Shown piece by piece: positions 27,549 to 64,000 of a stretch of DNA of 64,000 nucleotides (within the stretch, counting starts at the first letter, position 1; each line of letters opens with the position of its first letter). The notes beneath the pieces were generated by a model. The model made no database searches and was not told the DNA's origin. It worked only from the letters and a program-made list of their open reading frames with translations. This DNA is from Panorpa germanica. Taxonomy: Eukaryota > Arthropoda > Insecta > Mecoptera > Panorpidae. The translations under genes were made by a program, and so were the position numbers. The stretch covers positions 18,735,486 to 18,799,485 of the forward strand of contig OY783208.1 of the NCBI GenBank assembly GCA_963678705.1, in the 5' to 3' direction.

Positions 27549-27613
<65 letters not shown>

Positions 27614-27643
27614 GCTCTTATGACCAGTGTTAATTATATAAGA

Positions 27644-27986: not shown

Positions 27987-28225
27987 TATATATATTAAGA
28001 TTATATATAACAAAACATTACTAATAAAATATGTGTATCTTATTTTATATGGATGTATTAAAACATTAAATCTTATAATAATAAAACTCAATGGTTTGTG
28101 TTTATATATTATTATTTATTTATAAATATGCTATTTTTCAATTGTTATATAAATATACATTTTAATTATCTTAACTAAAACAGGTATAAATTTATACAAA
28201 ACTTAAACTTAACTTAAAATTAGTA

Positions 28226-33568: not shown

Positions 33569-33638
33569 AAAAATACGCTTAACTTAATCTTAATACAATC
33601 AATCACTTCCAATTTTAGTACTTTTCTATAATCACTGA

Positions 33639-34013: not shown

Positions 34014-35063
34014 AACTTGATAACAATCAATGCTTTTACAACGTCAATGATGTCTCTCGGGCTGATGTTGGTTTCTAAATTTAACAGGGTAGCACTTTAC
34101 TTATTTAATACTATAATATATTTACCATCAGACTATCAATTCTTAATTCTATGATCCCCGCGCATTCAAAATAAATAAAATTCTCGGGGGCCCCGACCCT
34201 TCGAGCAGTTTTATTTTAAAAAGTTTGTTTCAACTTAAGTTAGAGCTTTTGGTTTAGCTAATTGTGATTCTACTATTATCCACAACCTATATAGCCTCAT
34301 ACATATGGATCAAACCGCTACCTAATAAATTTGTATAATAAAATATCCTCCTACTATTTTAACAGTTACTGTGGTGTTATAACCTCATATATGTAAAACA
34401 ACACCATTGTCTGACTTATAAGACTTTATGATTATTACAACACATAAAAAAATAACTGTATGCTTTGACAATCATCAATGATATAATGTACGTATATTAT
34501 AACTTTTAGTATACTTAAATAAATAATCTAATACAACAATACCCAATCCGGCCCTACATTTAACTAAAACATAAAATGTATAACAATACATTCGAACTAA
34601 TGTATAACAAAAAATTTGTCTACGTTTGGAAAATATTCGCTTGTATTCAACACGTTCCCATAAGAATAATTTATATACGAAGTTCTCATGATAAGTGCTG
34701 ACGCCTGCTAACACGTGTGCTTCAAATTTCCGGTGAATTCGAAGGAATGCGTTATAAATACACTGTTATAAATAATTTAACACTGTCATAATCTTATAAC
34801 CAATAACAAATCAAACATAAGAATTAATATCGGTATCTCACTCTTTACCATTAGATATTAATTATTACACACGTAATACTTATTATCGCTATCTCACTCT
34901 TTCATATTACCCCACTATTACCCCAACATTGTCTAGCCACGCCACCTCACTCCTCACCCCACCCTTACCCCCTTTTACATTCTTCCAAGTCTAGCCACGC
35001 CCCCTCTGCATACCGTGACCTAAATGCATCCAACTGTCCTAGAACCGGCCTTGTACAACTACT

Positions 35064-49200: not shown

Positions 49201-51853
49201 GCGTGGAAAGCTGGGCAAGAAAGGATAGAGAAAGGATTACTGACAGCGATGAACAAGATATGGAAAGGAGGAAACCTGCCGGACAGCTGGAGAGAAGGGG
49301 TAATAACGCCGATATATAAAAAGGGAAATAGACATGAAGCCAAAAATTACAGGGGTATCACACTACTGAACACAGGGTACAGGATTTATGCAGGGATTGT
49401 TAGAGAAAGACTGGAAGAAGAGGTAAAAGTAAAAGAGATACTTCCCGAGACACAAGCAGGCTTTAGAAAGGGACGAGGGACTTTAGACAATATATACGCA
49501 CTGAACCATTTAGTTGAAAAAGAGCTAAGTGAAAAAGGAGGACAGATATATGCAATGTTCATCGACCTTAAAGCGGCGTTTGACATGGTCGACAGACAGA
49601 AATTGTGGAAGTACATGAGAAAGAAAAAAATAGATGAGGACATAATGAAATGTATTGAAGAAATTTACGAAGAAACAAGAATGAGAATAAGAGTTGGGGT
49701 GAAGAATCAGAAGAATTCTGGACAGACAAGGGGTTGAGGCAAGGTTGTCCTCTGAGCCCCATTTTATTTGCGATATATACAGCAGACTTGGAGGGGGTAA
49801 TGGAAAGAGGACAAGACGGGGGGGTGCTAATAGGAAGGCACTACAAGATATGGACTTTAGCATACGCTGACGATATAGTCCTGTTGGCAAAAAGGGAAGG
49901 AGAGCTGCAGGAGATGGCACACCGGCTAGGGAGGTATATAGACAGGAAAGGACTAGAGCTAAACGTGGAAAAGACAAAAATTATGGTATTTAAAAAAGGG
50001 GGTGGAAAAAGGAGACTTAAAAGGTGGAAATACAAGACAGAGGACATTGAGGAAGTTGAAGAATTTAAATATCTGGGCTACACTTTTAAAAAGAATAATG
50101 GAGAAGAGGCGCATATAAGGGAGGTGGCAAAGAAGGCAGAGCAAGCAATGCGACGGGTATGGGGACTAGGGGAAAAGGTATTTGGGGGGGACATACAAAA
50201 GAGAATATGGATATACGAGAGACTGATAGCCAGTATGATGTCGTATGGAGCAGAGGTTTGGGGGTGGAAGGAACAAGAAAAGTTGGAAAGAATACAGGTA
50301 AGATATATGAAATGGGTTCTAGGGCTGGACAGGTGCACGCCAGGATACATGGTGATGGAGGAGCTAAAGAGGGACAAGATACGAATTAAAACAGGGGAAA
50401 GAGCGGTAAAATACGAGGAGAAATTGAACAGAGCGGAAAGCAAAATCTTAAAGAAAATAAGAGAGGATTACATAAAGAATGGGGGGAAAGGAGGTCCAAA
50501 AAAGAGAAAAGAATACTTTGAAAGGAATGGAATGGCGATCGAGGAGGCAGAGAGGAGAAGAGAAGGTGGCGCAAGTGTGGCAGAGGAGCTAAGGAGAAGG
50601 GATAAGGAGACACAACAGCAGGAGAGAATGGGAAAAATAGAAAAAAGTAACTACAATAAAAGATATAAGAGGTTATGGGAAAATAATGTGCCTCAGTACC
50701 TTATAGAAAAGGACATAAAACACATAAGAAGAACAGCAAGGTTTAGATTGGGAAATGAGGAAAAAGGAAACAGATACTGGGAAAAGAGTGAGGAAAGAAA
50801 GTGTAGAATGTGTGGAGCGGAGGACGAAACACTGGAGCACATTAAGTTTGAGTGTAAGGAAAAAGTAGCAAGCGAAAGGAATATTGGACAGCTATTAAAG
50901 GGAGGCAGTGAAGGAAAGAGGTGGATGGCGGAAATAGTAAGAAGAAAAGGAAAAACAGGAGAATAAATAATCTGGTGGAGAATAATAGAGAGGGTCAAAA
51001 GAAGAAGAAGCAGAAAGCACTTTTGGAAGTAGTAAAAGTCGAGAAGATTTTAAGTTTATTTTAAGTTTAGTTTTTAAGTTTGGAATGTATATAGGAATGA
51101 AATGTATTAGAAATATAATACTGTAGATTGTAAAGCCGAAAGGCATACACAATTAATATATAAATAAAAATAATAATTAATTTTAAACAGAAAACAATTA
51201 TAAAGTTAAACAATTAAAAGTTTAGCTTTCCAAACAATTAGAAAGTTAACGTTTAAGCACATTTAGCATTGACCCTTCTCAATTCAACTTTGGTTAGGAA
51301 AATTAGTCTCTTTTGAAAAAAAAAATTAATTCCTTTTAAATTATTTGCACATATTTAGAGGTAAAAATGACCCGTCAATTACAGTTAAACATATGTAAGG
51401 TTTAAGTAACATAAAAATTACGTATTATGCAGAAAATGTTGTTTAAATATAATGTTCAATTAACTTGTTTATTGCTATAAAAATGATGAAATATTTATTG
51501 GTGGATTATTTAAATCATGAAATGATGTTTTGGGCCTTTACAATTATAAAAGCTAATTTAAATATTACCAAAGTTTGTTTAAGTAAAATGTTACCTAAAT
51601 TTAAGCTAATATAGACATTTTGTATTCACTGGGAATTAATTGAACAACTTTTATTCTTCTTATATTTTTTCTTTTTATTTATTCTTCTTTTTCTTTTTGG
51701 CTATTTATTATACTTTAAATTGCGCTGAAGATATATAATTCATAGAACTACTGGTGTTTAAGAATATCGATTGTAAAAATAAAAACAAAAATTAGAACTT
51801 ACCTGACAGCAGCCCTGTCTGCCACAACACTAACATTATGAAAGTTTTCAACA
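43246..51853 (-). CDS. Secreted sushi (CCP) and fibrinogen-domain protein, paralogue B
   Basis: Ten exons with GT-AG borders: 51802-51853 (signal 'MLKTFIMLVLWQTGLLS'), 46812-46860, sushi exons 46428-46624, 46151-46354, 45831-46030, fibrinogen exons 44941-45065, 44655-44771, 44416-44560, 43965-44109, 43246-43363. All phases agree. Total is 1352 nt, one short of 451 codons, because sushi exon 3 has 200 nt where paralogue A has 201 (missing base near 45973, after 'GSYSIVG'). Each sushi exon starts and ends near its Cys residues. The fibrinogen part has 'PFEVYCDL', 'GNHWLGLEHIHE', 'FKLTISGYSGNAG' and 'NGAWWFNGC', and ends 'RLLVRRK'. By family, fibrinogen-related domains bind carbohydrate or microbial patterns extracellularly; here an innate-recognition role is inference. 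The single lesion may be real or an assembly error. Confidence 0.85.
45105..45770. repeat. Dispersed repeat in paralogue B intron
   Basis: Homologous to 13405-14050; absent from the matching intron of paralogue A, hence a transposon insertion. Confidence 0.75.
47088..47786 (+). CDS. LINE ORF1 protein (coiled-coil, RNA-binding)
   Basis: From ATG 47088, 232 codons; the frame is open to the element edge, so the true start may be missing. Residues 1-95 are a long Lys/Glu coiled coil. 'ENIVIRGVKTS' starts an RRM-like fold similar to L1-type ORF1 proteins, and 'KKDVKVGYKKVWCEG' follows. Such proteins trimerise and coat the LINE RNA. ORF2 starts in another frame at about 47695, overlapping the end of ORF1. 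Confidence 0.75.
   Translation: MIQTEKEMQEEMKEMRERLKKMEEEFKTFIEESRKEREDLMRRLEKEKEEEKEEKKEEEKKKEETEKEVREKVQELEKEQEMARKREKRENIVIRGVKTSKMGAELRKEVEEWIQKELKEEVRITKAFTVGKEKGIVIARCEGEEKKRKIMEKKSTLRGTDVYIEDDLTYKEREVQWQLRQWAKKKREEGKKDVKVGYKKVWCEGTQYIWNEKNKELEKVEFRKHGEGVGGK
47695..50966 (+). pseudogene. LINE ORF2: endonuclease and reverse transcriptase, two lesions
   Basis: The endonuclease starts with 'RIKIGFWNVAGI'. It continues after TGA at 47935-47937 (a Trp is expected) with 'LLIGGDFNARIGELG' and 'DSDHLPLVVEL'. The RT has 'KAPGRDGLKNEAWK', 'ETQAGFRKGRGTLDNIYAL', 'MFIDLKAAFDMVDR', then a frameshift near 49700. It resumes with 'RQGCPLSPILF' and the catalytic 'YADDIVLLA' (about 49863). The C-terminal part is Lys/Arg/Glu-rich and ends with a zinc-finger-like 'CRMCGAEDETLEHIKFEC'. 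One nonsense and one frameshift in over 1,000 codons indicate a fairly recent insertion. Clade assignment is left open. Confidence 0.88.
51802..51853 (-). other. Exon 1 (signal peptide) of paralogue B
   Basis: ATG at 51853, 52 nt, followed by GTAAGT. It lies about 4.9 kb from exon 2 because the LINE at 47041-51173 fills intron 1. Confidence 0.85.
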
Positions 51854-52708
51854 TTTTGGTTTTTCTGTGTTAGATTATTTTGTGTTTCACTTTACCGCGA
51901 TCACTTGTAATTGTCGTTAGGCTAGTTTGTCCTGGCATCTTATAGTTGAATTATCGAATGATAAACTGGATCAAAGTGCAAATATTCGCGTAAACAAGAT
52001 TAACCAAGAGTGGCACTTGACGTTCCAGTGATAAGAGCAGGATGCATCGTATCATGATAATTAATAAGTTGAAGAAAAACTTTAAAAAATTGGGCACGAC
52101 TTATCAGGATCGCAGTCATCGTCGATTCATGTGATATCTTTTAATCAGTGGACCTACGCATTTATATTTTCCTAGTTTTTCTGTTTCACATGAAGTGGAC
52201 GGTCAATTTGTTGTCAAGGTGATGTCTAACAGAACATTTAGTTTACAAGGTGTGGCCGTTTTTAAACGAAATTGATGCTGATATAAAGGAATTATGCATC
52301 CCCAGTCGAAATTTTAGACCTATCGTGACCTATACTCCCCTTTTCATATTAAATACAGTAATGTAAACCTCGTCTCGTCATAAACATTGTTATATGACCC
52401 CACATAAAGAAAATTATGATCCTATTGTTTTGTGTAATTTAAACTTTGTAAACCTTTTTTACACTTAAGATGGTCAAAAGGAATTTCTCAATACTTGCTA
52501 TGAGTGTTAAAAGTAGATTCTACTGTTAAGGTATACGAATATGAAATAATGAGTTAGATAGAGATAGATAGTGTTATATTTGCTAGTAATAATATTTCCC
52601 TTCTCTTGGTATTTATATTTCGTTGAAAAAAGATATATCTTTTAGTGCTAAATAATGAAATAAAATACATGTTTTATTTTACCTAATTTAATTATTATTT
52701 GTAATAGC

Positions 52709-52989: not shown

Positions 52990-53102
52990 TTTAATCAAAA
53001 TATATAAAATATCTTTGCATATTCATTTTATAATTTATTTATTAATAAAGTTTTAAACTGAAAATATAAGAAAGACCTTTTGATTCTGCCGTAAACCTGG
53101 AA

Positions 53103-53107
<5 letters not shown>

Positions 53108-53151
<44 letters not shown>
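53108..53151. repeat. (TA)n tract at left border of second Polinton
   Basis: About 22 TA units ending one base before AGTAGT. If the Polinton inserted here its 6-bp TSD would be hidden in the repeat. Confidence 0.85.
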
Positions 53152-53153
<2 letters not shown>

Positions 53154-53467
53154 TAGTATATAAAAGAGGGGAACTAACCCAAACTCAGATTTGATTGATT
53201 TGACACCTAAAATTTACCAAATTGTTATATATAACCAAATATTTTGAAAATATTAAATATTTATAAAAAATTGCAAAAATTGTTATATATAACCAAATAT
53301 TTTAAAAATATTAAATATTTTTTAAAAATTACAATAATTAATAACATTTATCAAAATATTGACATATATTTAGACTTCTAGAGATTCTGCGTTATAGTGC
53401 TCCAAAAGTGATAATATATCATGTTTTACCATATTCACAAAATACTGAATAATTTTTTTTCTATTAA

Positions 53468-53794
53468 ATGGAAAATAGAAAATGCTCAACATGTAAACAA
53501 ACCTTATCTTTGGATAATTTTTATTCAAATAAAAGTAAAAAAGATAATCTAAGTAATATATGTAAAAATTGTGATTTAAATTATAAAAAACAAACTATTT
53601 TTTGTGAATGTGGTAAAATAATTTCAAAATATTTTCATAAAAAACATTTAAAGACAAATTATCATCGATTAAGACTTAATAAAGCTAGAAAATGTTCATC
53701 TTGTCAAATTGAAAAACCATATGAAGAATTTAATAAAAATCAAAGTGATGCATTAGGATATTCTTATACTTGTAAAGAATGTGTTAAAAATTAA
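53468..53794 (+). CDS. Zinc-ribbon protein with two CxxC pairs per half
   Basis: 108 codons on the plus strand, opposite to all other genes of the element, starting inside CTATTAAATGG. Two similar halves each carry 'KCSTCKQTLSLDNFYSN...CKNC' and 'KCSSCQIEKPYEEFNKN...CKEC', a pattern common in small zinc-binding proteins of large DNA viruses and HNH-nuclease-associated domains. A middle 'CECGKIISKYFHKKHLKT' adds another likely metal site. No nuclease residues follow. A role in nucleic-acid binding or regulation is inference. Confidence 0.65.
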   Translation: MENRKCSTCKQTLSLDNFYSNKSKKDNLSNICKNCDLNYKKQTIFCECGKIISKYFHKKHLKTNYHRLRLNKARKCSSCQIEKPYEEFNKNQSDALGYSYTCKECVKN

Positions 53795-53799
53795 TTTAA

Positions 53800-54437
53800 A
53801 AAAAGAGCAAAAGTATCTTATGTTACTTACTAATCAATTATTTATACACAAATCTGTCTTCACAGTATTACGAAGGAGATTCAATGTATTTACTCAAACT
53901 CTTTCACGAACATACTATCCAGTTTATTAGAATTCGTTCTATTGAGTTTACGCCATCACGACATTTACATCTTTTTACAGACGTCGAGTCTTTAATTCGG
54001 CTTTGTAATACTCCTTTGGAGCACTGCTAAGCAGATACAATGAATCATCTCCTTCAGAACACAACAAATCAGATTTTTACATATAAATAATAAGAGAAGA
54101 AATCAATATCATAAGATACTTTTGAGATTTAATACGACCAGTCTACCAATGATACTGACTTTGATCTGCACTAATATAAGATGTGCACCTCTTATAAAAC
54201 GCATGCTCAAAACCATAATATCATAGTTATCCCAACATATGAAAAATTAAAACTTGTATATATAGTCCATAATTACAGTGTACAATACTACTGAGAGCTA
54301 AGACGTGAATCATTACATACAAATGAGATTCGTTAATTAGTGTCACCATCTATTATTAATTATTATATGCAAAACTCTGAAAGAGAAATAAAAAAAAAGA
54401 TTTGTCACATGTGGGATTCGAACGCATGCTTAACATA
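53800..54437. other. Noncoding left-end region of second Polinton
   Basis: No gene. Contains half-copies of the palindromic repeat (53871-53881, 54009-54026, 54045-54060). On the minus strand near 54401-54424 it has a tRNA-like B-box GTTCGAATCCCAC followed by a run of nine T. Confidence 0.6.
54009..54060. repeat. Two partial copies of the Polinton palindromic repeat
   Basis: ACTCCTTTGGAGCACTGC and ATCTCCTTCAGAAC, diverged relatives of the TCTCCTTCGGAGC arm. Confidence 0.7.
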
Positions 54438-55961
54438 TTAATTAAGTTCAAAACTATTTTGTAGTACGAGTTTCTTTAATAAAATTTTTAGCTGTTCTAA
54501 AATTGTCATATTTGGACAGGGTATATCAAACATTGATAAGTCTTTTTTACCTGATCTAATTAATGAATTTGAAAACTCACTATACTCATAAAAATTATTA
54601 TTATGAAAAAAATATAATAGTCCGTTTATATATCTAAATACATTAGAAACGTTCAATGGTATCCCCGGAAATAAGTCTGATAAGAGACCATGACGTTTTG
54701 GAGATAACGAACACTCATTTAGTTCTATATAAAGGTTATCATAAAAAACATATGTTTGACCAGTATATGAGTTAAAAATACTTGTAATCATTTTATTTTG
54801 CGGAATGCCTAATCTTTGTAAAGGAACTCCATTGTAATTATTATTTACTTCAAAACTAGGATAACTCATTATGTAAAATAACTCATCAACAATTATTAAT
54901 ATTTCACCTGAAGGTCTTTGATATATATGAGATATTTTTTCTATATCTTTAGGTAAAAATTTTAAATAATCTGTTATCAGTTCCGGTTCCTGATATATCT
55001 TATCACCAATTTTTATTCTCCACACATACTTGTTATAGAAAATATAGAGATTATGATTCACAATTAAAAACGTATCTATATTTTTATATACATTACAAAG
55101 AATAGGTTTATTGGTTGGAGCGTTTGAAATAGTTGTTGGAATACTAGTTGGAATAGTAGTTGGAATTATTGGAGTTATTGGAGGACCATATAACCTCTGA
55201 ACTGCATAAATATCATCTTGACTGAGATTATTCTTTCTTCTATAATAAGGAAACATTATTGCTTCTTTTTGTGCAGAATGTTCAATACCTAACGTATGTC
55301 CAATTTCATGTATTAATACAGAATACAAACTAGTTTTCTCACTAGCATCTCCTTCGGAGCGCTCTGAAAGAGTATCATTATCATACAAATCCCAATCTTC
55401 AGACCTATCTAAATGAATTTCTAAACAACTATTATTTGTATTAGGATACGTTGCATGTGCTAATACTGTTCCTTCGCCATCAAAATCCCAATTACAAAAA
55501 CCTTTTGTACATCGAGCATTATTTTTATGTTTATGTATATCGCTTGCAAACGAAATTAATATATCAGGCTTATAAATATTATTATAAAAAGTAAGACCAC
55601 TTACTATCGACCAAACATTAAAAGCTTTTTGAGTAATTTCTTTGTGTATTGATTGAGCTAAAGCAAAATGCCAATACAAAGTTTTTCTATCCCATTTCGT
55701 TGTATGAATTCTATATTGTAAAGGATTATCTTCATTTCCACATCTTGGTGTTTTAATTAACTTTAATGCTTTATCAATAGGTAAATTATAATATTCTTGA
55801 AAAAGTATTAAAGAGCCTTCAGAGTCTTTAGTACTCTCCGGAGCGCTACTATTAGTAGTTGAGAAACCAAAATGATTTAAATATTTTTCAATGTTCTTAT
55901 CAGAGTCCTCGTTTGTTGAAAATATTGGTAAAAGAAATAAAAAGTAAAAAATATATATCAT
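54438..55961 (-). CDS. Secreted matrix metalloproteinase carried by Polinton
   Basis: 507 codons, ATG at 55961 within TATATAAATG. Order: signal peptide (residues 1-16, 'FYFLFLLPIF'), propeptide with cysteine switch 'PRCGNED' (72-78), catalytic domain with 'HEIGHTLGIEHS' (218-229, three His plus Glu219) and Met-turn 'AIMFP' (Met236). A Pro/Thr-rich hinge (262-287) and a C-terminal hemopexin-like propeller between Cys289 and a Cys near 483 follow. This is the full animal MMP layout. It would be made as an inactive secreted zymogen that cleaves extracellular matrix. Two short insertions come from the element's palindromic repeat: about residues 38-50 in the propeptide and 195-206 ('DTLSERSEGD') just before the zinc helix. 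It is the last gene of the leftward array, after MCP. Probably captured from an animal host; MMPs are also known in some insect baculoviruses. Confidence 0.93.
   Translation of the reverse strand: MIYIFYFLFLLPIFSTNEDSDKNIEKYLNHFGFSTTNSSAPESTKDSEGSLILFQEYYNLPIDKALKLIKTPRCGNEDNPLQYRIHTTKWDRKTLYWHFALAQSIHKEITQKAFNVWSIVSGLTFYNNIYKPDILISFASDIHKHKNNARCTKGFCNWDFDGEGTVLAHATYPNTNNSCLEIHLDRSEDWDLYDNDTLSERSEGDASEKTSLYSVLIHEIGHTLGIEHSAQKEAIMFPYYRRKNNLSQDDIYAVQRLYGPPITPIIPTTIPTSIPTTISNAPTNKPILCNVYKNIDTFLIVNHNLYIFYNKYVWRIKIGDKIYQEPELITDYLKFLPKDIEKISHIYQRPSGEILIIVDELFYIMSYPSFEVNNNYNGVPLQRLGIPQNKMITSIFNSYTGQTYVFYDNLYIELNECSLSPKRHGLLSDLFPGIPLNVSNVFRYINGLLYFFHNNNFYEYSEFSNSLIRSGKKDLSMFDIPCPNMTILEQLKILLKKLVLQNSFELN
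55347..55376. repeat. Palindromic repeat copy inside MMP catalytic domain
   Basis: ATCTCCTTCGGAGC followed by GCTCTGAAAGAGTATC; in frame it encodes 'DTLSERSEGD' on the minus strand. Confidence 0.9.
55811..55851. repeat. Diverged palindromic repeat copy inside MMP propeptide
   Basis: AGAGCCTTCAGAGTC and TACTCTCCGGAGCGCTAC; encodes 'SAPESTKDSEG' in the MMP frame. Confidence 0.7.
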
Positions 55962-55986
55962 TTATATATAATATTATTTTCTATTG

Positions 55987-57198
55987 TTAAATAGTCTCCT
56001 CAAATTTATTTAAAACCATATCAAATTTATTTTTAATATGAGATAACAACATAATATAACAACATGTATCATTTTCAACTTTCTTATCAAGATCAACATG
56101 TAAAAATATTGTTTTATTTGAAATTTCTGTATCTGTTGGTTGACAAGTTAAATCAACTAAATAAACAGGTCCAAGTTCTTTATAACTTTTTATATCATAG
56201 AACATATTTTTATCTGTTATAGAAAATATTTTTTTATAAGACTGATATGTCATATATGCAATATTATATTTATCTTTATCAAAATCTAAATTTTGACTTT
56301 CTTCTGGATATCTATTTCCATTAATAGTGAAATAATAATTTTTAACATATTTATGATTAAACTCACTCATATCTTTCAATTGATTATTAGATTTATTTAC
56401 TTGGAAAGCGAATATTCCAAATAACGGTTGTTTGTGGCTTCTATAATCTGTAGTAATATCAAGTTTTAATGATTTTCCAGACATACTCTCATTCAATATT
56501 TTAATACATTGCCATCTATAATAATTGAAAATATAATTTCCTTCTTCACTTAGAGTTTTTAATTCATCAAGTAACATTGTACAATTAATAGTATCATATT
56601 CAAGCAATGGAGTATATAAATAAATATCAGTAATTATAATTTTACCCTCAGCAACATCATTCGCTCTATAAATTGCATCATTATCATGATTCATTGTAAA
56701 TATAAATTCATCAGCACTACCCCAAATTATATTATCAGTATCACATATTCCTAATCCTAAATCAGATAAAGGTACTAATGCTGTAAAAATACCACCATGT
56801 TCAAAATTTGAAATAAATCCAGTATTTAAATTATTTGTATCAGTTTTTGTTTTTGTAATTACTCCCTTCATTGTACTTGCAACTCCAACGTTTTCAATTA
56901 GATCAATTTTGTAATTATGTTTCTTATATTCAATGGTTTTAAATTTATGTGCTACAAAATTATTTATTAATTTAACTACAGTTTCATTACCATAATTTTT
57001 TTCATCTGTTTGTTTATATTCTCCCTCAATATAAATATGAATATTTTTTAAATTTAGAAAACAGTTATTATTATAATCAAGTTTAAAAGATATTGCTGCA
57101 TTTTCTTTATTTATATCTCGTCTATCAAATTTTGGATAAAATTTCTTGTATTCATTACGAATTAAATATTTGTTATATTTATCAAAAACTTCGGCTAT
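55987..57198 (-). CDS. MCP: Major capsid protein (hexon-like), start codon altered
   Basis: The frame from 57198 to 55987 is about 403 codons. It follows two in-frame TAA codons and begins ATA-GCC where sibling genes have TAATAAATG, so the expected ATG reads ATA. The first in-frame ATG is internal (56871), which would remove about 109 residues. Protein features match Polinton double-jelly-roll MCPs: 'LIENVGVASTMKG', 'LGICDTDNIIWG', 'NDAIYRANDVAEGKI', and late 'FAFQVNKSNNQ' and 'NGNRYPEES' blocks. Length is in the family range. It should form the trimeric hexon capsomer of an icosahedral capsid. It directly follows the protease gene and overlaps its stop. Either non-AUG initiation or a disabling mutation. 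Confidence 0.75.
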   Translation of the reverse strand: MAEVFDKYNKYLIRNEYKKFYPKFDRRDINKENAAISFKLDYNNNCFLNLKNIHIYIEGEYKQTDEKNYGNETVVKLINNFVAHKFKTIEYKKHNYKIDLIENVGVASTMKGVITKTKTDTNNLNTGFISNFEHGGIFTALVPLSDLGLGICDTDNIIWGSADEFIFTMNHDNDAIYRANDVAEGKIIITDIYLYTPLLEYDTINCTMLLDELKTLSEEGNYIFNYYRWQCIKILNESMSGKSLKLDITTDYRSHKQPLFGIFAFQVNKSNNQLKDMSEFNHKYVKNYYFTINGNRYPEESQNLDFDKDKYNIAYMTYQSYKKIFSITDKNMFYDIKSYKELGPVYLVDLTCQPTDTEISNKTIFLHVDLDKKVENDTCCYIMLLSHIKNKFDMVLNKFEETI

Positions 57199-57600
57199 TT
57201 ATTAGAATAAAAAAGATTCTGAAACGGTGAGCTCCGAAAGTTCTTTAAGTAAAATAAACAGAGATGTCCACAAATTGGTGGATCATTATATTGTTGAATT
57301 CGTGTATCATTATAAAATATCGCCGAAGGTTGTGAGAAATATTTTATTAATTCTTTAGGTGGTTTAGCGTTTCCATAAGAATCAAAATAATATATTTTAT
57401 TATTCTTTTTATAATAAGCAGTCCAATGACTTCCTGTTTGATATGAATTTTGTAAATTTATAATTCCACATTCATTTTTATTTGGTTTATCTGGTAATTC
57501 ATCTTTCATAAACACACTAAAACTTTTAAAATTCACATCTAAAATTTTTAATTTTTAATTTTTCAACTAAATTTTCAATATCTATGTTTGACAATGGCTG
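57195..57600 (-). pseudogene. Adenovirus-type cysteine protease (maturation protease), frameshifted
   Basis: The catalytic part (57536-57195) contains 'KPNKNECGIINLQNS', the His motif 'GSHWTAYYKK', 'YYFDSYG' and the Cys motif 'PPICGHLCLFYL', as in Polinton/adenovirus proteases that process capsid precursors. The N-terminal segment (about 57597-57540, 'NIDIENLVEKLKIKNF') is in another frame and runs into TAA, so a frameshift separates the two. Upstream there is no ATG; three palindromic-repeat copies (57602-57673) lie where the start should be. As read, no intact protein can be made from an AUG. Confidence 0.8.
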
Positions 57601-57601
57601 A

Positions 57602-57673
57602 ATCTCCTTCGGAGCGCTCGGAACGAGTATCTGCTTCACAGTGCTCTGAAAGAGTATCTCCTTTGGAGCGCTA
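57602..57673. repeat. Cluster of three palindromic repeat copies
   Basis: ATCTCCTTCGGAGCGCTC, CAGTGCTCTGAAAGAGTATC and TCTCCTTTGGAGCGCTA in tandem between the pX and protease genes. Confidence 0.9.
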
Positions 57674-58084
57674 AATCTTTTTTTTTTTTAAACCACTTCC
57701 TTTTTTCTCCATTGCTAAATCATGTCTTTTTTGTTCTTCTAGTTCTTTATCTTTAGCTGATTTATTTATAACTGAATTAGTAATTGCAGATGCTCCACCA
57801 ATTAATGATCCTAAAGCTGCTAATCCAGCAAATACTAATGGAAGAAATCCACCCTCATGATTTTTTTTCAGAGCCTCGAAGGAGATTTTTATTCTACAAC
57901 CTGTTTTCTCTTTTATTGCCTTCTTAATTCTATTTGATAATCTTTTTGTTAATAATATTTTATTTTCACCACCACTAATTAATTGATCATATTTTAAATG
58001 AATTAAAATATCTTTTTTATCCTTATAGGCTTTATTAATATTACTAGTTTGATGTTTTGTTAATTTTGTTTGGAATGTTTCCAT
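57671..58084 (-). CDS. pX-like minor virion protein with hydrophobic Gly/Ala segment
   Basis: 137 codons, ATG at 58084 in GTAATAAATGG. The N-terminal half is basic, 'GGFLPLVFAGLAALGSLIGG' forms a hydrophobic small-residue helix (78-97), and the C-terminus is Lys-rich ('GSGLKKKKI'). This arrangement is characteristic of Polinton/adintovirus homologues of adenovirus core/minor capsid proteins and suggests a membrane-active or DNA-associated virion peptide released by the protease. 'KISFEALKK' (66-74) is encoded by a half-copy of the palindromic repeat at 57871-57886. Confidence 0.7.
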   Translation of the reverse strand: METFQTKLTKHQTSNINKAYKDKKDILIHLKYDQLISGGENKILLTKRLSNRIKKAIKEKTGCRIKISFEALKKNHEGGFLPLVFAGLAALGSLIGGASAITNSVINKSAKDKELEEQKRHDLAMEKKGSGLKKKKI

Positions 58085-58090
58085 TTATTA
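58082..58090 (-). promoter_or_regulatory. TAATAAATG start motif of pX gene
   Basis: Minus-strand TAATAAATG; the same nonamer or a near match surrounds the starts of most genes of this element. Confidence 0.55.
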
Positions 58091-58113
58091 CTAAAATAAA
58101 GTATCTCTCTTTT

Positions 58114-59625
58114 TTATGCTAATCCAAAACCAATTTTATGTTTTAATTTCATTCCTGTTGTAACAAGCCATGCATTTGTTTTTTCACCAACCGAAGGAGA
58201 ACTCTTAAATCTATTCCAAGCTTTCTGTTCTAAAACTTTATCAGCTTCATGTCTCTTTTCCAAGTCTTTATTTTCACTATAAGCAATATCATGTTCTTTA
58301 CAAGCTTCGTCTAAACCATTAATTCCTTTATCACCTCTTGCTAATCTATCGTGTAATTTAGTACCAGGACCACAATAATTATATCCAGGAAGATGCATTT
58401 CAAATGGTAGGGTATTTATAATTGTATTTAGTATACCTGATCCTCTTATAATTTTCTTTGGTAATGATGTTGCAATTTTTATTAAATATTCACACCCTTT
58501 TGGAGTATCTAATATTTTTTCAATTTCATTATTAAAAAATTTTAACACTCCTAATTTTTCATTATGAAAATTATTATTTCCTGCATTTTCTTGCGCATTA
58601 ATATATTGTAAACGATTTATTAATTGATTCAAATTTGAAATATATTGAACTTCTATTTTATTATCATTGTATTCTCTCCAATGAGAGAGCTCCGAAGGAG
58701 ATTCTTTCCATTGAAAGCGCTCCGAAGGAGATTCTTTCCATTGAGAGACACCAGAACCTTCTTTCTCTTCTTTAAAATTACTATCTCCTTCGGAGCGCTC
58801 TGAAAGAGTATCATAATATAAATCTTGTTTCATACCTGTTTTAATATAATCATGTATATATTTTATCATTGTAGTCCATTTAATTGTTGGTGATGAAAGA
58901 GGTTTATTAATTTTGTTTTTTAAAGCATTAGAATTTATTATAATATCTCTATAAGCTATATAGTCATCTTTTGTAAAGAATTGTGGATCAGGTTTACCAC
59001 CATAAGTTAATAAATACCATAATCCAACAGTTCCATTATAGGTTTTTTTACCATCAATAGTAATTCCATCATCTTTATCAAGTTCCATTTTACTACTACC
59101 TATTTTTAATTCGTTATTAACAGATTTTGGTCCAAATATTTTATCAAACTTGTAATCTTTATCCATACTAAGTTGCAAATATGTTGATGCGTTTGTTCCA
59201 TATATTTTTATTTTTGAAAAATCAAACTTTCTTGGAGTAACAGGTTCTGTTAATTCTTTTTTACTTGGTGTAACAGGTTCTGATATAGTAAAATATGGTT
59301 GTAATTGTTTAGTTTCTCCTTCAGAACTTTTAATAATATCTTCATCTATTTTTCCAAGCGCTGATAATAATGGAGCATATTCTTTTTCTTTAGTGGTCTT
59401 ATATTTTAAATTTTGTAATTCAATTTTTTTATATTTCTCATATAATTTATTTCTAATCTCATCTGCTTTTTCTGCTTCTAATAATTTATCTGATTTCGAT
59501 CGTGACAGCGTTTTCTTTTTTTCCTCAGAGATTTGTATAGATCCTTTTTTATATGTTTTAATTAATTTATCTCGCATTTTATCTATTTTTTTAGCTTCGG
59601 AAACGGTTAAGATGTCTCCTTCCAT
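58114..59625 (-). CDS. Phospholipase A2-domain minor capsid protein
   Basis: 503 codons, ATG at 59625 in TTAATAAATGG. Residues 1-100 are charged and probably coiled coil; the middle is a mixed region. The C-terminal 90 residues form a parvovirus VP1-type PLA2: Ca2+ loop 'YNYCGPGT' (415-422) and the catalytic 'HDIAY' (445-449) inside 'LDEACKEHDIAYSE'. In parvoviruses and Polinton-like viruses this domain breaches the endosome during entry. Residues near 285-325 consist largely of translated palindromic repeats ('DTLSERSEGD', 'KESPSERFQW', 'KESPSELSHW'), apparently a disordered insertion. Located between ATPase and pX, as usual for the virion module. Confidence 0.85.
   Translation of the reverse strand: MEGDILTVSEAKKIDKMRDKLIKTYKKGSIQISEEKKKTLSRSKSDKLLEAEKADEIRNKLYEKYKKIELQNLKYKTTKEKEYAPLLSALGKIDEDIIKSSEGETKQLQPYFTISEPVTPSKKELTEPVTPRKFDFSKIKIYGTNASTYLQLSMDKDYKFDKIFGPKSVNNELKIGSSKMELDKDDGITIDGKKTYNGTVGLWYLLTYGGKPDPQFFTKDDYIAYRDIIINSNALKNKINKPLSSPTIKWTTMIKYIHDYIKTGMKQDLYYDTLSERSEGDSNFKEEKEGSGVSQWKESPSERFQWKESPSELSHWREYNDNKIEVQYISNLNQLINRLQYINAQENAGNNNFHNEKLGVLKFFNNEIEKILDTPKGCEYLIKIATSLPKKIIRGSGILNTIINTLPFEMHLPGYNYCGPGTKLHDRLARGDKGINGLDEACKEHDIAYSENKDLEKRHEADKVLEQKAWNRFKSSPSVGEKTNAWLVTTGMKLKHKIGFGLA
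58685..58743. repeat. Two palindromic repeat copies in PLA2 gene
   Basis: GAGCTCCGAAGGAGATTC and GCGCTCCGAAGGAGATTC separated by TTTCCATTGAAA; in frame with the host gene. Confidence 0.9.
58783..58812. repeat. Palindromic repeat copy in PLA2 gene
   Basis: ATCTCCTTCGGAGC plus GCTCTGAAAGAGTATC; the same 30 bases as in the MMP copy, again read as 'DTLSERSEGD'. Confidence 0.92.
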
Positions 59626-59632
59626 TTATTAA
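59623..59632 (-). promoter_or_regulatory. TAATAAATG-type start motif of PLA2 gene
   Basis: Minus-strand TTAATAAATG at the initiation codon. Confidence 0.55.
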
Positions 59633-59654
59633 TAAAATAATGCATCGTTTCTTT

Positions 59655-60332
59655 TTAAAGAGCATCGACACTCTTAATATATCCATCAACGTCTTTAAAC
59701 ATATAACGTTCATTAATGTTATCTTTTTCACGATTGATACATAAGAAACCATATTTTATTTTCCAACAATTATTACATAACTCTTTAAATTTATTTAAAT
59801 CCATATCAGCACCGACAATTGTTTTATGAATCTCCTGAATACTATATAAATCCTGTTTAAACAATATAAGTAAATTACAATTATTTCTAATCAAATTCTT
59901 ATTTGTTTCAAGAAAACTTTGACTAAGATAAAAACAAGATAATTGTTTATGTCTTCCACTATAAAAATATTTTTTAAACATATCTTGATCTTCTACTAAA
60001 CAATCATCAAACACAACAACACTATCAGTTATACAATCTTCAACAGGAATAATATTTTCACAATTATTAAAATGCGAATCCACTGTATCTATCTCACTAA
60101 AAATTCTTTCTAATGCTTTATATATTTTTTGATTTAATGTTGTTGTATAAATATATAGACCTTTGAATTCTATAAAAGGTTGTGTAAGAAAATTAAATAA
60201 TAACCATGTTTTACCACAATTTGAAGGACCACATAATAAACATCTTAATGGTTTTGGAAATATTTTTTTTGTGTTTTTCTGTTCTTCAAATATATAATCT
60301 TTTATTTGGAAGGAGGAGAATCTGTTAGTCAT
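59655..60332 (-). CDS. FtsK/HerA (A32-type) genome packaging ATPase
   Basis: 225 codons, ATG at 60332 in TTAATAAATG, overlapping the last 8 nt of the penton gene. Walker A is 'GPSNCGKT' (35-42), Walker B 'SVVVFDDC' (104-111), with 'NLIRNNCNLLILFKQD' as sensor region. Length and motif spacing agree with Polinton ATPases that pump DNA into the capsid. All key residues are present and the frame is intact. Confidence 0.93.
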   Translation of the reverse strand: MTNRFSSFQIKDYIFEEQKNTKKIFPKPLRCLLCGPSNCGKTWLLFNFLTQPFIEFKGLYIYTTTLNQKIYKALERIFSEIDTVDSHFNNCENIIPVEDCITDSVVVFDDCLVEDQDMFKKYFYSGRHKQLSCFYLSQSFLETNKNLIRNNCNLLILFKQDLYSIQEIHKTIVGADMDLNKFKELCNNCWKIKYGFLCINREKDNINERYMFKDVDGYIKSVDAL

Positions 60333-61242
60333 TTATTAAACAACAAAAATGTAAATATGTTATAATTCTACTAAATATTTGACACTCATTTCCTTCTAAG
60401 TCATAAACATTTAAAATAATTTCTTGAAATTTATCAATTCGATCTGATATATCAATATAAATAATTTCATTTGGATTTAAAAACTGTCTTGCAATATTTG
60501 TATCTAATTTAAATACATAAAGTAAATTATCGTCTTTATGTGAATGTGGATGATTATCATGATTTGAATGACTTGATTCTACAATATTACAATGTATTTC
60601 ATATAATTTATTATTAATAATTCTTCTTTCTTTAGGTAATATAAGTGGACCTTCTATAATTTTATTTTGTGGAATAATTCCAACTCCAATTATATTATTA
60701 TTTCCAAATCCTATTATATTATTAATTTCCTTTGAAAATATTAATTTAACTGGACTATTAATTTTCACTTTATTTTGATTAATAACATCCATTACAAATG
60801 AACCATGATCAAAAAATGTTTGAGTACTATGAAAACTTTTTCCTTTTGGTATTTCTCCTTCTGGTATAAAAGTTATATAATTTAAAAAATCATCAGCATT
60901 TTTATTAGAAAAATCAAATACATGTTGATTATTTTTAATTTTAAATTCTTTAGTTTTTATTATAAAACTCATACGAGTTAAATATTGTATAATTTTTGTT
61001 TCTAAATCATTAATAGAATATATATTTGCATTTATATTACATGTTAATGAATAATATCCATATATAGTTTCCCAAATAATATCTATACTAAATTTTGGAA
61101 ATTTGAACTTTGTAAAAATATTTATATCAATTAAATCATATTTAAAACCAGATACTCCAATTTTATATTTTTTATTTGAATCAAGATTAATTGGATTTTC
61201 AAATCTCAATTTGTTTCCAATAATTTTAATAAATTTCCCCAT
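60325..61242 (-). CDS. Penton (minor capsid, single jelly roll) protein
   Basis: 305 codons, ATG at 61242 in AAATAAATAATGG. The C-terminal third, 'LNPNEIIYIDISDRIDKFQE' to 'DLEGNECQIFSRIITYLHF', matches the end of Polinton penton proteins. The central 'NNIIGFGNNNIIGVG' is typical as well. A His-rich stretch 'SSHSNHDNHPHSHKDD' interrupts a loop and may be element-specific. Position next to the ATPase supports the call. Confidence 0.75.
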   Translation of the reverse strand: MGKFIKIIGNKLRFENPINLDSNKKYKIGVSGFKYDLIDINIFTKFKFPKFSIDIIWETIYGYYSLTCNINANIYSINDLETKIIQYLTRMSFIIKTKEFKIKNNQHVFDFSNKNADDFLNYITFIPEGEIPKGKSFHSTQTFFDHGSFVMDVINQNKVKINSPVKLIFSKEINNIIGFGNNNIIGVGIIPQNKIIEGPLILPKERRIINNKLYEIHCNIVESSHSNHDNHPHSHKDDNLLYVFKLDTNIARQFLNPNEIIYIDISDRIDKFQEIILNVYDLEGNECQIFSRIITYLHFCCLIND

Positions 61243-61277
61243 TATTTATTTATAAAAAAAGAAAGCCTTCGCAGTCT

Positions 61278-62219
61278 TTAGCAAATCTTACATTTTTGAA
61301 GTTCTTTATTATAAAATCCACCAATGACTTCTTCACCATTTAAATCTTTTATTTTATATGTTATTGGATTGGTATATAAAATTTTATGAATTTTAAATAT
61401 TTCATTTGTCCAATTAGTTTCATATTTATTTGAAAATGTTGATTTGAATTTTGTTATTCTAACTTTATCACCAATTTTGAATTTTGAGATAATTTCATAA
61501 AATCTATCCCTATTGGGAGAGTATACAGTATTCAAAATATATTTTTCATTATCTTTATTAACTTCAAAGGGTTTCATTTTGATAGTTCGATGATAATCTT
61601 TATAATTATACTCTTTTATTAAAGTATCTAATATATTTATCCATTTAAAATTATTATTTGCTGTAAAATAGGGTTTCATCTTACGATTCAAAGTACCATT
61701 AAATCTTTCAATAATTGTAGATTTTTCTTCATTTTCAGTGTGATACATTTTTATATTATATTTATCCAAAATTTTTATAAAATCTTTATTAACAAATTCT
61801 AAGCCTTTATCAACATGTAATAATTTTGGTTTTCTATTATGTAATAATGATTCAAAAGCTTTAGCAACTGATTTTCCTGTTTTATATTTTAATGGTTTAG
61901 ACCAAACAAATTTTGAAAAAGTATCAATACCATTTAATATATATTTATAACCATTATTATCATCAGCATATTTTCTCATTATAACTAAATCTGCAGCCCA
62001 TAAATCATCTATTCCAAGTGTTATAACTTTTCTTCGTCTAAATTTTTTAATAACTGGTTTATGTAATTCAATTGCTTCTTTTAAAAGAACTTCAGAGTTT
62101 TTTTTTTGTAGGGCTCCGAAGGAGATTCTTAATAAATTGACTTTTATTACTATTACAAATTTTACATTTTGCTGATAATCTGTATTTATTATTTTCTGTT
62201 TTAATTGTTTTAATATCAA
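61278..62219 (-). CDS. Retroviral-type DDE integrase
   Basis: 313 codons from ATG 62219, but real homology starts near residue 45 ('LLKEAIELHKPVIKKF'). Catalytic core: Asp77 in 'DDLWAADL', Asp137 in 'LLHVDKGLEF', Glu171 in 'STIIERFNG'. A C-terminal chromo/SH3-like part ('FKIGDKVRITKFKSTF') follows. This is the Polinton integrase that inserts the linear DNA and yields 6-bp TSDs. The first 40 codons overlap the zinc-ribbon gene in another frame and include a repeat half-copy encoding 'RISFGAL'. The N-terminus shown is therefore doubtful; no TAATAAATG motif precedes this ATG. Confidence 0.88.
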   Translation of the reverse strand: MILKQLKQKIINTDYQQNVKFVIVIKVNLLRISFGALQKKNSEVLLKEAIELHKPVIKKFRRRKVITLGIDDLWAADLVIMRKYADDNNGYKYILNGIDTFSKFVWSKPLKYKTGKSVAKAFESLLHNRKPKLLHVDKGLEFVNKDFIKILDKYNIKMYHTENEEKSTIIERFNGTLNRKMKPYFTANNNFKWINILDTLIKEYNYKDYHRTIKMKPFEVNKDNEKYILNTVYSPNRDRFYEIISKFKIGDKVRITKFKSTFSNKYETNWTNEIFKIHKILYTNPITYKIKDLNGEEVIGGFYNKELQKCKIC

Positions 62220-62274
62220 TATTATCTGTTTTCTTTTTGCATTTTACACAATATACTCGTTCTGAGTTATCCAT
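62092..62274 (-). CDS. Small zinc-ribbon (DUF5679-like) protein
   Basis: 60 codons, ATG at 62274 in GTAATAAATGG. 'YCVKCKKKTDN' and 'AKCKICNSNKSQFIK' give two CxxC pairs, the DUF5679-type pattern common in Polintons, sometimes as a domain of larger proteins. Its last codons overlap the start of the integrase ORF in a different frame and are encoded by a palindromic-repeat half-copy, so the domain may once have ended or been fused differently. Confidence 0.7.
   Translation of the reverse strand: MDNSERVYCVKCKKKTDNIDIKTIKTENNKYRLSAKCKICNSNKSQFIKNLLRSPTKKKL
62111..62129. repeat. Half-copy of palindromic repeat at zinc-ribbon/integrase overlap
   Basis: GGGCTCCGAAGGAGATTCT, read in two frames by the overlapping genes. 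Confidence 0.85.
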
Positions 62275-62280
62275 TTATTA
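62272..62280 (-). promoter_or_regulatory. TAATAAATG start motif of zinc-ribbon gene
   Basis: Exact minus-strand TAATAAATG. Confidence 0.55.
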
Positions 62281-62292
62281 CAATAAATAAAT

Positions 62293-62325
62293 GCTCTCCG
62301 AAGGAGATTCTCTCTGAAAGAGCTT
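62293..62325. repeat. Palindromic repeat copy between genes
   Basis: GCTCTCCGAAGGAGATTC plus TCTCTGAAAGAGCTTC, located in the spacer before the membrane-protein stop codon. Confidence 0.88.
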
Positions 62326-62778
62326 CTATTTTGAAGATGGTATTCCATTTATATTTGCTTTCTTTAAATATTTATCCAATGGAAAAAATTTAAGATTTTC
62401 AATAAATTCTGCTTCTTTAATATAAACATCATTTTCATTTATTATATTTGCTTTTATTTGTGTTAACATTTGATTATAAAATTTATAGGCCACTTTATAC
62501 TCAGACATTTTTTCCTTAATTTGAATTTTTTTATCTAAAATTTCAATTATTACTCCACCTAAACCTAATGCTGCTAATGGTATTAAAATTAAATCTGGTA
62601 ATCCACTTGGTAGTGCTCCGAAGGAGAATCCAGATGCACTAAATAATACTTTACTAATTGTTAAACCAATATCAATTTTTTGATAATAATTATAACTTTT
62701 TCTATATACATACATTCGTTTTTCAATATATGTTTTGGAGGAGATAATCTCCTTTGGAGAGCTCTGAAAGAGATTCAT
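62326..62778 (-). CDS. Small protein with central hydrophobic segment
   Basis: 150 codons, ATG at 62778 in ATAATAAATG. A basic N-terminal helix ('YIEKRMYVYRKSYNYYQK') is followed by about 55 hydrophobic residues (from 'IGLTISKVLF' to 'LAALGLGGVIIEIL') that could be two membrane passes. A charged helical C-terminus follows. The outline resembles two-TM SLATT-like proteins, but I cannot assign a family. The loop 'SASGFSFGALPSGLPD' between the hydrophobic parts is encoded by a half-copy of the palindromic repeat (62613-62630). Confidence 0.6.
   Translation of the reverse strand: MNLFQSSPKEIISSKTYIEKRMYVYRKSYNYYQKIDIGLTISKVLFSASGFSFGALPSGLPDLILIPLAALGLGGVIIEILDKKIQIKEKMSEYKVAYKFYNQMLTQIKANIINENDVYIKEAEFIENLKFFPLDKYLKKANINGIPSSK
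62613..62630. repeat. Half-copy of palindromic repeat in membrane-protein gene
   Basis: GTGCTCCGAAGGAGAATC, in frame; gives 'GFSFGAL'. Confidence 0.85.
62747..62775. repeat. Palindromic repeat copy at gene start
   Basis: TCTCCTTTGGAGAGCTCTGA followed by AAGAGATTC, just inside the start of the membrane-protein gene; encodes its 'LFQSSPKEII'. Confidence 0.85.
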
Positions 62779-62784
62779 TTATTA
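62776..62784 (-). promoter_or_regulatory. TAATAAATG start motif of membrane-protein gene
   Basis: Exact minus-strand TAATAAATG. Confidence 0.55.
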
Positions 62785-62800
62785 TAAAAAATATTTTTTT

Positions 62801-63241
62801 TTATTGACTAAAAGTAATGTTATGTTTTTCGTATTTATCATTCATAATAGTTTTACCTTTGTATATTATTTTCAATAATTTTAAATCATCTGGATTATCA
62901 ATTATTTTATTATATTTTTCTGGTAAACTCAATTTCTTCTTATTTTCAAGAGTTAAAATTATTCTATCTCCATATTTTGATGTTATCATTTTTGCATTCA
63001 TAATGAGATATGGTATATTTAATTCTAACTCTAACAAATTTATGAAATTATTATAAAGATTATTAATGTTATTCAATTTGTTTATTAATTCTTCTCTGGA
63101 GAGCTTTGAAAGAGATTCTATTTTGGAGAGCTTTGAAAGGGATTCTGTTTTACAAAGCTCTGAAAGAGTATCTACACTAGTAGTATCTCCTTCGGACGAA
63201 TATGTATCTATTTTGGAGAGCTTTGAAAGAGAGACGTTCAT
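62801..63241 (-). CDS. Hypothetical protein with repeat-derived N-terminus
   Basis: 146 codons, ATG at 63241 in TAATAAATG, overlapping the PolB stop (ATGA). Residues 1-50 are built of translated half-repeats ('SLSKLSKI', 'DTYSSEGD', 'DTLSELCK', 'ESLSKLSR'). Residues 50-146 are a compact region ('YLIMNAKMITSKYGDRIILT', 'LKLLKIIYKGKTIMND') without a recognisable family. Its position after PolB may suggest a replication-linked role, but that is speculation. Confidence 0.6.
   Translation of the reverse strand: MNVSLSKLSKIDTYSSEGDTTSVDTLSELCKTESLSKLSKIESLSKLSREELINKLNNINNLYNNFINLLELELNIPYLIMNAKMITSKYGDRIILTLENKKKLSLPEKYNKIIDNPDDLKLLKIIYKGKTIMNDKYEKHNITFSQ
63093..63236. repeat. Cluster of palindromic half-repeats
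   Basis: Five or more related units in 145 bp: TCTGGAGAGCTTTGAAAGAG, TTTTGGAGAGCTTTGAAAGG, ACAAAGCTCTGAAAGAGTAT, TATCTCCTTCGGACGAA and TTTTGGAGAGCTTTGAAAGA. They form the N-terminal coding part of the hypothetical protein. Confidence 0.9.
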
Positions 63242-64000
63242 TTATTATAGAAAAATTCATCAATATTTTTATGACCATATGATAGTCTATTAAATTTATC
63301 AATTAAATATTTTTTATCATCATAAGGACTTAATCCAATTTTTTCTTCTTGAATAGTATATAATTGTAGCTTAAATGATCTTATACTATAACTAGATTCA
63401 ATTGTCCTTTTTTGTTCAAATAGACAATCTTTATATTTATCAAATGTCATTTTCATAATATTAACTTTTTTAATTCCTTTACATATTTTCTTCTCATGAT
63501 TATCAGTTCTAAACGCATACATTTTTGATCGTAATCCACAATATTCTCTAATTGGAATACCATTATATTCATCTTTAAATAATCCTGGAATTTTTTTATT
63601 TTTTTGAGGTATATTATTAGGATGATCATCTGGATAATCACTTGTATCAAAATATTCAATATTATTTTTTATATCTTCATAAAAATCGTCTGTTTCTACA
63701 TGTATGATAAAGGAATCTGTGTCAGTGCTTAATAGTTTAACTTTATCACCATATTTAGGTTTTAAATAGTTATAATAAAATTTATACATTAATAATTTTG
63801 ATAGTTCAAGTATAGTAAATCCACCAAATATAGGTTTATTTAATTTAACATAAACTTTTTTTCCATACATGAGGACAGTATCTTCATTTAATATACTTCT
63901 GTCTTGATAATGATTTGAATTTATCATTTTTTGCATTGCTTCTTCAGATTTAATTAATTTTACATTTAATCTATTTCTAACGTTTTCCATTTGTTTTCCA
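63238..64000 (-). CDS. polB: Protein-primed DNA polymerase B, C-terminal part (partial)
   Basis: The frame is open to the window edge; the visible 254 codons start with the end of motif B ('GKQMENVRNRLN') and contain motif C 'STDTDSF' with both catalytic Asp. Further downstream are 'CGLRSKMYAF' and 'KKICKGIKKVNI', conserved in the thumb of Polinton PolB. The stop TGA overlaps the ATG of the next gene. Unlike the PolB copies at 23-32 kb, no lesion is visible here. It replicates the linear element using a protein primer, by family knowledge. Confidence 0.93.
   Translation of the reverse strand, partial: GKQMENVRNRLNVKLIKSEEAMQKMINSNHYQDRSILNEDTVLMYGKKVYVKLNKPIFGGFTILELSKLLMYKFYYNYLKPKYGDKVKLLSTDTDSFIIHVETDDFYEDIKNNIEYFDTSDYPDDHPNNIPQKNKKIPGLFKDEYNGIPIREYCGLRSKMYAFRTDNHEKKICKGIKKVNIMKMTFDKYKDCLFEQKRTIESSYSIRSFKLQLYTIQEEKIGLSPYDDKKYLIDKFNRLSYGHKNIDEFFYNK
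63239..63247 (-). promoter_or_regulatory. TAATAAATG start motif overlapping PolB stop
   Basis: Minus-strand TAATAAATGA combines the PolB TGA stop and the next ATG. Confidence 0.55.

Follow-up and report, generated by a model that had tools for sequence, protein, structure and literature searches.

A 64,000-nt stretch of the Panorpa germanica genome (contig OY783208.1, positions 18,735,486 to 18,799,485; the whole stretch is hereafter called the window) harbors at its right end a Polinton/adintovirus-like provirus (53141–64000), in which short hairpin-forming units are scattered between and within the genes. The window belongs to a 24.8-Mb contig of the 464-Mb genome and not to organelle DNA. 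The element runs past the window end to ∼3959 nt into the adjoining stretch (L032), giving a total length of ∼14.8 kb. Its terminal inverted repeat of 340 nt (53141–53480) is 98.5% identical to an inverted partner at 3620–3959 of L032, i.e., 3.6–4.0 kb past the window end. Pfam analysis revealed a double-jelly-roll (DJR) capsid protein (E = 2.4e-29) and an rve integrase (E = 5e-10), which, along with the terminal inverted repeats, place the element among the Polintons, as well as a phospholipase A2-like (PLA2-like) domain and a matrixin with hemopexin repeats. A candidate packaging ATPase is A32-like (Pox_A32, 0.0062) and a candidate protease is adenain-like (Peptidase_C5, 8.8e-4), both matches being below the Pfam cut-off. 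The 1210-aa polymerase-side open reading frame (ORF) contains an Endonuclease VII domain (Pfam Endonuclease_7). No PolB match was obtained by Pfam in the two polymerase-side pieces scanned; the name PolB is presumed from gene position, and similarly the penton-like gene is taken to be such from gene order.

With up to two mismatches allowed, the window contains 16 matches to the arm of the repeat, TCTCCTTCGGAGC, against 0.22 matches expected, and all of them are confined to the right-end Polinton (54010–63198). This bears out a preliminary description of the DNA, according to which a repeat is scattered over this Polinton and was not noticed in the rest of the window, the other Polinton included. 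A sequence-blind scan for pairs of adjacent hairpins, each stem having 4 bp or more, identified 10 places in 53001–64000 (mean of 0.1 and maximum of 2 in 50 shuffles) and one place in the other 53 kb of the window (10 shuffles: mean 0.8). Using six perfect hairpin forms as queries and allowing one mismatch, 21 hairpins were counted in 53141–64000, of which 14 were inside ORFs and 7 were intergenic, several of the latter at gene borders. All three reading phases were in use (DTLSERSEG, NLFQSSPKE, and ISFGAL), in agreement with the earlier claim of units lying between genes and inside ORFs in different frames. The window gave no match to Rfam at the gathering score.

Two neighboring hairpins recur as the repeated unit, which is a double hairpin of 27–30 nt with two stems of 4–5 bp, short loops, a 2-nt linker, and GATA or GAAT flanks. 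The 27-nt form consists of GATA, hairpin 1, the linker, hairpin 2, and GATA, and in its most frequent version the coding strand reads GATA-CTCTTTCAGAG-CG-CTCCGAAGGA-GATA. The first hairpin was also found as TTGTTTCACAA, CTCGTTCCGAG, and CTCCTTCGGAG, among others, with the form kept and the letters not, and the second as CTGCAATGCAG, ATGCAAAGCAT, CACCAAGGGTG, and CTCCGATGGAG, among others. Covariation was evaluated in 26 distinct 27-nt units, chosen at six sites by anchors 27 nt apart and not by pairing; the 30-nt units of the penton-like gene are absent from the set owing to the fixed anchor distance. Under the two-hairpin model, 191 of the 208 cells of the aligned stems (92%) were standard pairs, against a mean of 164 and a maximum of 178 in 2000 shuffles, and 27 cells were paired despite changes on both sides, against a mean of 9 and a maximum of 17. 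Such double changes were observed in seven of the eight stem pairs, which was equalled by 3 of the 2000 shuffles, and sliding the pairing partners by 1–3 nt reduced pairing to 32–52%. These values replace a first count that contained off-register and 30-nt rows, in which 177 of 224 cells were paired (at most 142 in shuffles) and 42 were doubly changed (at most 24 in shuffles). The two mini-hairpins have thus been retained despite sequence change. The single 26-nt palindrome that was originally taken for the unit did not hold up, as its pairing (161 of 234 cells) was reached by 581 of 2000 shuffles and its covariation did not go beyond that of the shuffles. When folded as DNA, a single unit formed the two mini-hairpins weakly (−3.3 kcal/mol, z = −0.55); among three longer stretches, that of the PLA2-like gene exceeded its shuffles (z = −4.1) and the other two did so not clearly (−1.5 and −0.8). 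When folded as RNA, the unit formed one long hairpin instead. Since the covariation fits two mini-hairpins, whereas the RNA fold is one long hairpin, the data lean toward, and fall short of proving, a structure at the DNA level.

Comparison of the window element with 20 further stretches of the genome (L numbers) showed presence and absence of whole, precisely inserted units at the same place between close relatives. At three coding sites, namely, matrixin, PLA2-like (27 nt), and penton-like (30 nt), the empty allele contains one GATA and the filled allele two. In the alignment of 11 copies, nine carry the matrixin unit (55346–55376, minus strand), read as DTLSERSEGD shortly upstream of HEIGH, whereas the site is empty in L021 and L028; the insertion measured 27–30 nt across the genome stretches. 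In the protein, DLYDN-DTLSERSEGD-ASEKTSL corresponds to DLYDN-ATEKTSL in L036, and a gap is also present in L034, which belongs to another lineage. The second GATA at this site was intact in L015 and changed to GACA or GATG in others. The matrixin-hemopexin (MMP-like) gene itself (54438–55961), carried aboard the Polinton, has a relative in L034 with 33% identity. A single 27-nt unit at a duplicated GATA in the PLA2-like gene (58782–58812, minus strand), again read as DTLSERSEGD, was filled in 10 copies, the window included, and empty in the same-lineage stretches L013, L021, and L028; six stretches (L019, L020, and L022–L025) showed diverged sequence in neither state, and L035 and L036 showed unrelated residues at this first unit, not a simple gap. 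The same gene contains a tandem ESPSERFQWK/ESPSELSHWR array (58672–58756, minus strand) with the hairpins CTCCTTCGGAG and CTCTC-ATTG-GAGAG, the length of which varies among copies, with gaps of 19 residues in L035 and 17 in L036. In the penton-like gene, the window holds the empty target site TTAGATACAAA (coding strand; 60497–60517, minus strand), at which seven other copies have 30, 57, 60, or 87 extra nt and L035 has no insert. The C-terminus of the protease (LKNFRSSPFQN; 57195–57260, minus strand) is a short allele, other copies having up to 81 extra nt with the second frame NLFQSSPKE. Alleles were compared in length at five coding sites, and every difference was a multiple of 3. The flanking repeat varied in length, being GATA, GATAC, the 9-nt ACTATTTAA, or, by eye, ∼3 nt in L028.

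The remaining sites are distributed along the element. A double hairpin, CTCCTTTGGAG-CA-CTGCTAAGCAG (54011–54034), and a single hairpin, CTCTGAAAGAG (54375–54385), are intergenic, as is an array between X137 and the protease gene (57601–57669, minus strand) that includes the variant CTCGTTCCGAG-CA-CTGTGAAGCAG. Another hairpin (62110–62130, minus strand) lies where the end of the zinc-ribbon ORF (NLLRSPTKKKL stop) overlaps the integrase frame (LLRISFGALQKK), and four copies have one additional 27-nt unit there. In the window copy, the integrase frame (61278–62280) has no ATG ahead of 61979 and overlaps the zinc-ribbon ORF (MDNSERVYCVKCKKK...), which ends at the hairpin. A hairpin pair in the intergenic space that separates the zinc-ribbon ORF from Y150 (62295–62322, minus strand) is extended by 29 nt in five copies. 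The Y150 gene contains a hairpin pair read as GFSFGALPSG (62604–62626, minus strand) and, right behind its ATG, a unit read as MNLFQSSPKE (62748–62778, minus strand). The polymerase-side ORF also carries degenerate repeats (ESLIDLSEGESLIKLFEGKSLTELFEGESPIE), and a 27-nt period is seen there in L014, at the site 63088–63235 (minus strand); L014 has a different right flank and was left out of the count. The polymerase-side protein of L014 additionally has a 13-residue insert (PETPETPNASKSN-like) relative to the window element, which by eye is not of the hairpin family.

Identical variants were found at different sites. CTCTTTCAGAG-CG-CTCCGAAGGAG is common to the matrixin (8 loci) and PLA2-like (10 loci) genes, and CTCGTTCCGAG-CA-CTGTGAAGCAG to the 3′ end of the DJR capsid gene in other copies (3 loci) and the gap between X137 and the protease gene (2 loci). 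As a 28-mer, the latter occurs 13 times in the genome, including a pair on contig C5 (54 nt apart, one strand) and a pair on C8 (2.8 kb apart, opposite strands, not clearly one element). Among the asymmetric doubles, 47 of 49 shared one prevailing orientation.

The units are confined to one Polinton lineage among the places listed. The ATPase search, in which 150 of 538 candidates were scored, gave at least 79 same-lineage matches (some being two pieces of one copy) and at least 71 other-lineage matches (35–39% identity). The genome is very rich in Polintons, as seen from these 150 ATPase matches and the 388 further candidates. For the exact 13-mer arm, 100 of 296 places were listed by contig and reached C5, so that C1–C4 were taken as complete. 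On these contigs, the 13-mer was found within 10 kb of the ATPase at all 20 same-lineage places versus none of the 31 other-lineage places (35–39% identity). Conversely, of the 96 13-mer places on C1–C4, 90 had a same-lineage ATPase no more than 10 kb away; the remaining six were in L016 and L017, which contain other genes of the lineage. A 24-mer gave 66 matches in the whole genome, of which 65 had a same-lineage ATPase at a distance of up to 12 kb and one was in L017. Among the matches listed, it was found near 47 of 75 same-lineage ATPase places (75 of the 79 rows, four second pieces being omitted) and near none of the 71 other-lineage places. A repeat spread over the whole host genome, which according to the preliminary description would have spoken against a specific element, is hence ruled out for the places listed. 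The relative L035, with a gene order largely as in the window element, had no double hairpin in 9 kb, and of two other-lineage stretches examined, L033 had none and L034 had one, which was unrelated. An origin of the unit later than the split from L035 is supported by few loci. A search of viral contigs with a 16-mer gave 11 contigs of 56–69% GC with one motif each, which were judged to be chance matches, and no relatives were recovered in single-sequence searches that used the capsid protein or the ATPase as the query. In a capsid-gene tree of 17 rows, no branch was well supported; the minimum numbers of changes on it were seven for the penton-like, five for the PLA2-like (where six diverged alleles were counted as empty), and one for the matrixin site, which tells little apart from a possible spread of units by recombination between copies.

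It is probable that the double hairpin is a lineage-specific, non-autonomous coding micro-element, which spread in one Polinton lineage by copying, putatively through template switching. It does not encode its own movement, being too short to do so. Units would be copied into new places, either between genes or mostly in frame within genes, and would also expand in tandem. The replication machinery would switch template at GATA-like microhomologies, copy a hairpin unit, or several, that reside in another site or array, and then return to its first template. A template switch between the arms of a hairpin would mend the stem, such that the sequence would drift while the pairing would stay. Selection on the host proteins would retain mostly inserts of 3n length, and recombination among the many co-resident copies would shuffle units and may also spread them. 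Variable flank homology, whole-unit lengths, the prevailing orientation, tandem growth, and paired stem changes fit template-switch copying, and, owing to the variable length of the flanking repeat, microhomology fits better than a fixed staggered cut. Template switching has been described as creating and repairing hairpins and altering coding sequence (PMC8794818, PMC8604942). More tentatively, with chances that fall a little short of even, a DNA-virus lineage of animal type would possess its own miniature mobile DNA, with the pair of single-strand hairpins as its sole conserved feature. This DNA would colonize genes on the polymerase side as well as those for the penton-like protein, the protease, and the phospholipase-like protein, irrespective of frame; the replication machinery of the virus would copy it, and new short peptide inserts would keep arising from it. 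Among the roles offered in the preliminary description, mobility and dispersal are supported by the empty and filled alleles and by the same variants at different sites, and a recombination or replication hotspot is plausible. The comparison of orthologous proteins, in which the same residues without the repeat were to count against insertion, did not on the whole go against the interpretation. The residues are missing at the matrixin, PLA2-like array, and penton-like sites, where a clean comparison could be made, but L035 has similar residues at the KISFEAL copy, which was thereby ruled out as an insertion.

The main rival is a dedicated enzyme. The double hairpin would then undergo true non-autonomous transposition, being recognized as single-stranded DNA and inserted at GATA by a protein that belongs to either the element or the host, similar to a proposal for organelle hairpin elements. 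Such a process would be consistent with precise insertion and a short direct repeat, at GATA in all three coding sites, with the two-hairpin structure being retained while the sequence changes, and with the dispersal of identical variants; the Endonuclease VII domain of the polymerase-side ORF is a candidate enzyme, of a class that acts on branched DNA. However, the flanking repeats measure 4, 5, 9, and ∼3 nt, the orientation is non-random, and Pfam scans of 10 ORFs and two polymerase pieces showed no transposase except the rve integrase, several ORFs being matchless. Moreover, GAAHNHCNL, which we take to be an Endonuclease VII type motif, is also present in ORFs of the other Polinton of the window, where the arm was not found. 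Transposition is, on balance, unlikely. An ordinary coding minisatellite, i.e., a 27-nt (9-aa) protein repeat growing by slippage with incidental hairpins, is improbable, as single units occur at unrelated sites in several genes and intergenic regions, in three frames and with precise empty alleles; stem pairing survives double changes, and slippage alone cannot found new sites. It is still less probable that the hairpins are a cis-signal selected for packaging, replication, or transcription end, with the coding copies as a by-product. The retained structure and the 7 of 21 hairpins that are intergenic, several at gene borders, agree with such a signal, yet copies with mostly ∼99% identical capsid proteins are not alike in the units present, and double hairpins are lacking in L035, despite its largely similar gene order, and in L033, the one in L034 being unrelated. 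The hairpin regulatory signal considered earlier is likewise unsupported, because almost identical elements differ in which units they have. Selection for variable surface peptides, with hypervariable inserts being favored in proteins that are secreted or part of the virion and with a secondary role for the DNA structure, would fit the inserts in the penton-like, PLA2-like, and matrixin genes. It is very hard to credit, since other units are intergenic and the peptides from the three frames are unrelated (DTLSERSEG, NLFQSSPKE, and ISFGAL).

Comparable elements are known from other systems. Repetitive hairpin-forming elements (RHE) of sponge mitochondria are present in Vaceletia and not in Ircinia of the same gene order, and mobility has been hypothesized for the double-hairpin elements (DHE) of Allomyces, which are said to lack flanking duplications (PMC2800124). 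Both resemble the Polinton units as scattered hairpin-forming repeats, the RHE also by being absent in a relative; however, the RHE are mitochondrial and intergenic, whereas the window units are in a Polinton and within several protein genes, and, unlike in DHE, GATA is duplicated. The yeast mitochondrial GC cluster GC42 is a mobile palindrome of 42 nt with a putative AG target duplication, and shares short size, stem constraint, rapid presence/absence turnover, and cluster merging (PMC4478555). The likeness to GC clusters is one of features; changes in GC42 gather in loops, whereas the Polinton units change their stems in pairs and in-frame coding use is central to them. Palindromic elements of Rickettsia are bacterial, measure ∼150 bp, and encode a conserved peptide in frame within unrelated protein genes (PMC10969869). 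The likeness to bacterial protein-coding palindromic elements suggested in the preliminary description is supported overall by in-frame insertion of palindromic DNA in unrelated genes, although the Polinton units are 27–30 nt long, use three frames, and reside in a eukaryotic genome. PARCELs, 75-nt repeats of a 25-residue amphipathic protein motif, are similarly dispersed tandem coding repeats with dyad symmetry and variable number (PMC2996958), whereas the Polinton units have a 27-nt period and unrelated peptides in three frames with no cross-frame motif. Coding palindromes in the mitochondria of Nematomorpha, in which the inverted repeats can reach 284 bp and the arms code for conserved parts of proteins (PMC6649704), also retain both constraints within coding sequence, but they have long arms and no dispersed inserted units. 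For a miniature inverted-repeat transposable element (MITE), which would have terminal inverted repeats used by a cognate transposase and a target duplication of fixed length, the signs are mixed, with GATA repeats at three coding sites, 9 nt and ∼3 nt elsewhere, and no cognate transposase in the Pfam scans. The Polinton units are set apart by their host, small size, three-frame coding use, and paired stem changes. No report of hairpin elements in Polintons was found in the literature searched, mostly judged by titles, and the main text of an adintovirus-rich survey has no occurrence of hairpin or palindrom- (PMC11071296).

Other features were observed in the window and in related elements. 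Positions 20900–34050 contain pieces of another Polinton that form a large inverted duplication, several ORFs being identical on the two strands, and positions 46000–52000 contain ORFs resembling long interspersed nuclear elements (LINE-like) with an extreme one-strand purine skew (up to 0.49 for GC and up to 0.48 for AT). Parts of Polintons appear to be tandemly duplicated in L016, at C1:7294927/7301777, and at C41:73251/79087, with periods of 1.1, 6.9, and 5.8 kb, respectively. L021 and L013 share a similar insert of ∼270 nt with a T-run at its start, which interrupts Polinton genes (matrixin and PLA2-like) and by eye resembles a short interspersed nuclear element (SINE).

Mobile palindromic inserts in protein genes of Rickettsia and mitochondrial hairpin elements were already known, and their mode of movement is unsettled. 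Here, one genome contains filled and empty alleles and recognizable shared variants, along with a diverged relative that has no hairpins in the portion seen and internal controls from other Polinton lineages, and the question of movement is therefore directly testable. For the proteins of these viruses, the units represent a route to gain short new segments in different frames.

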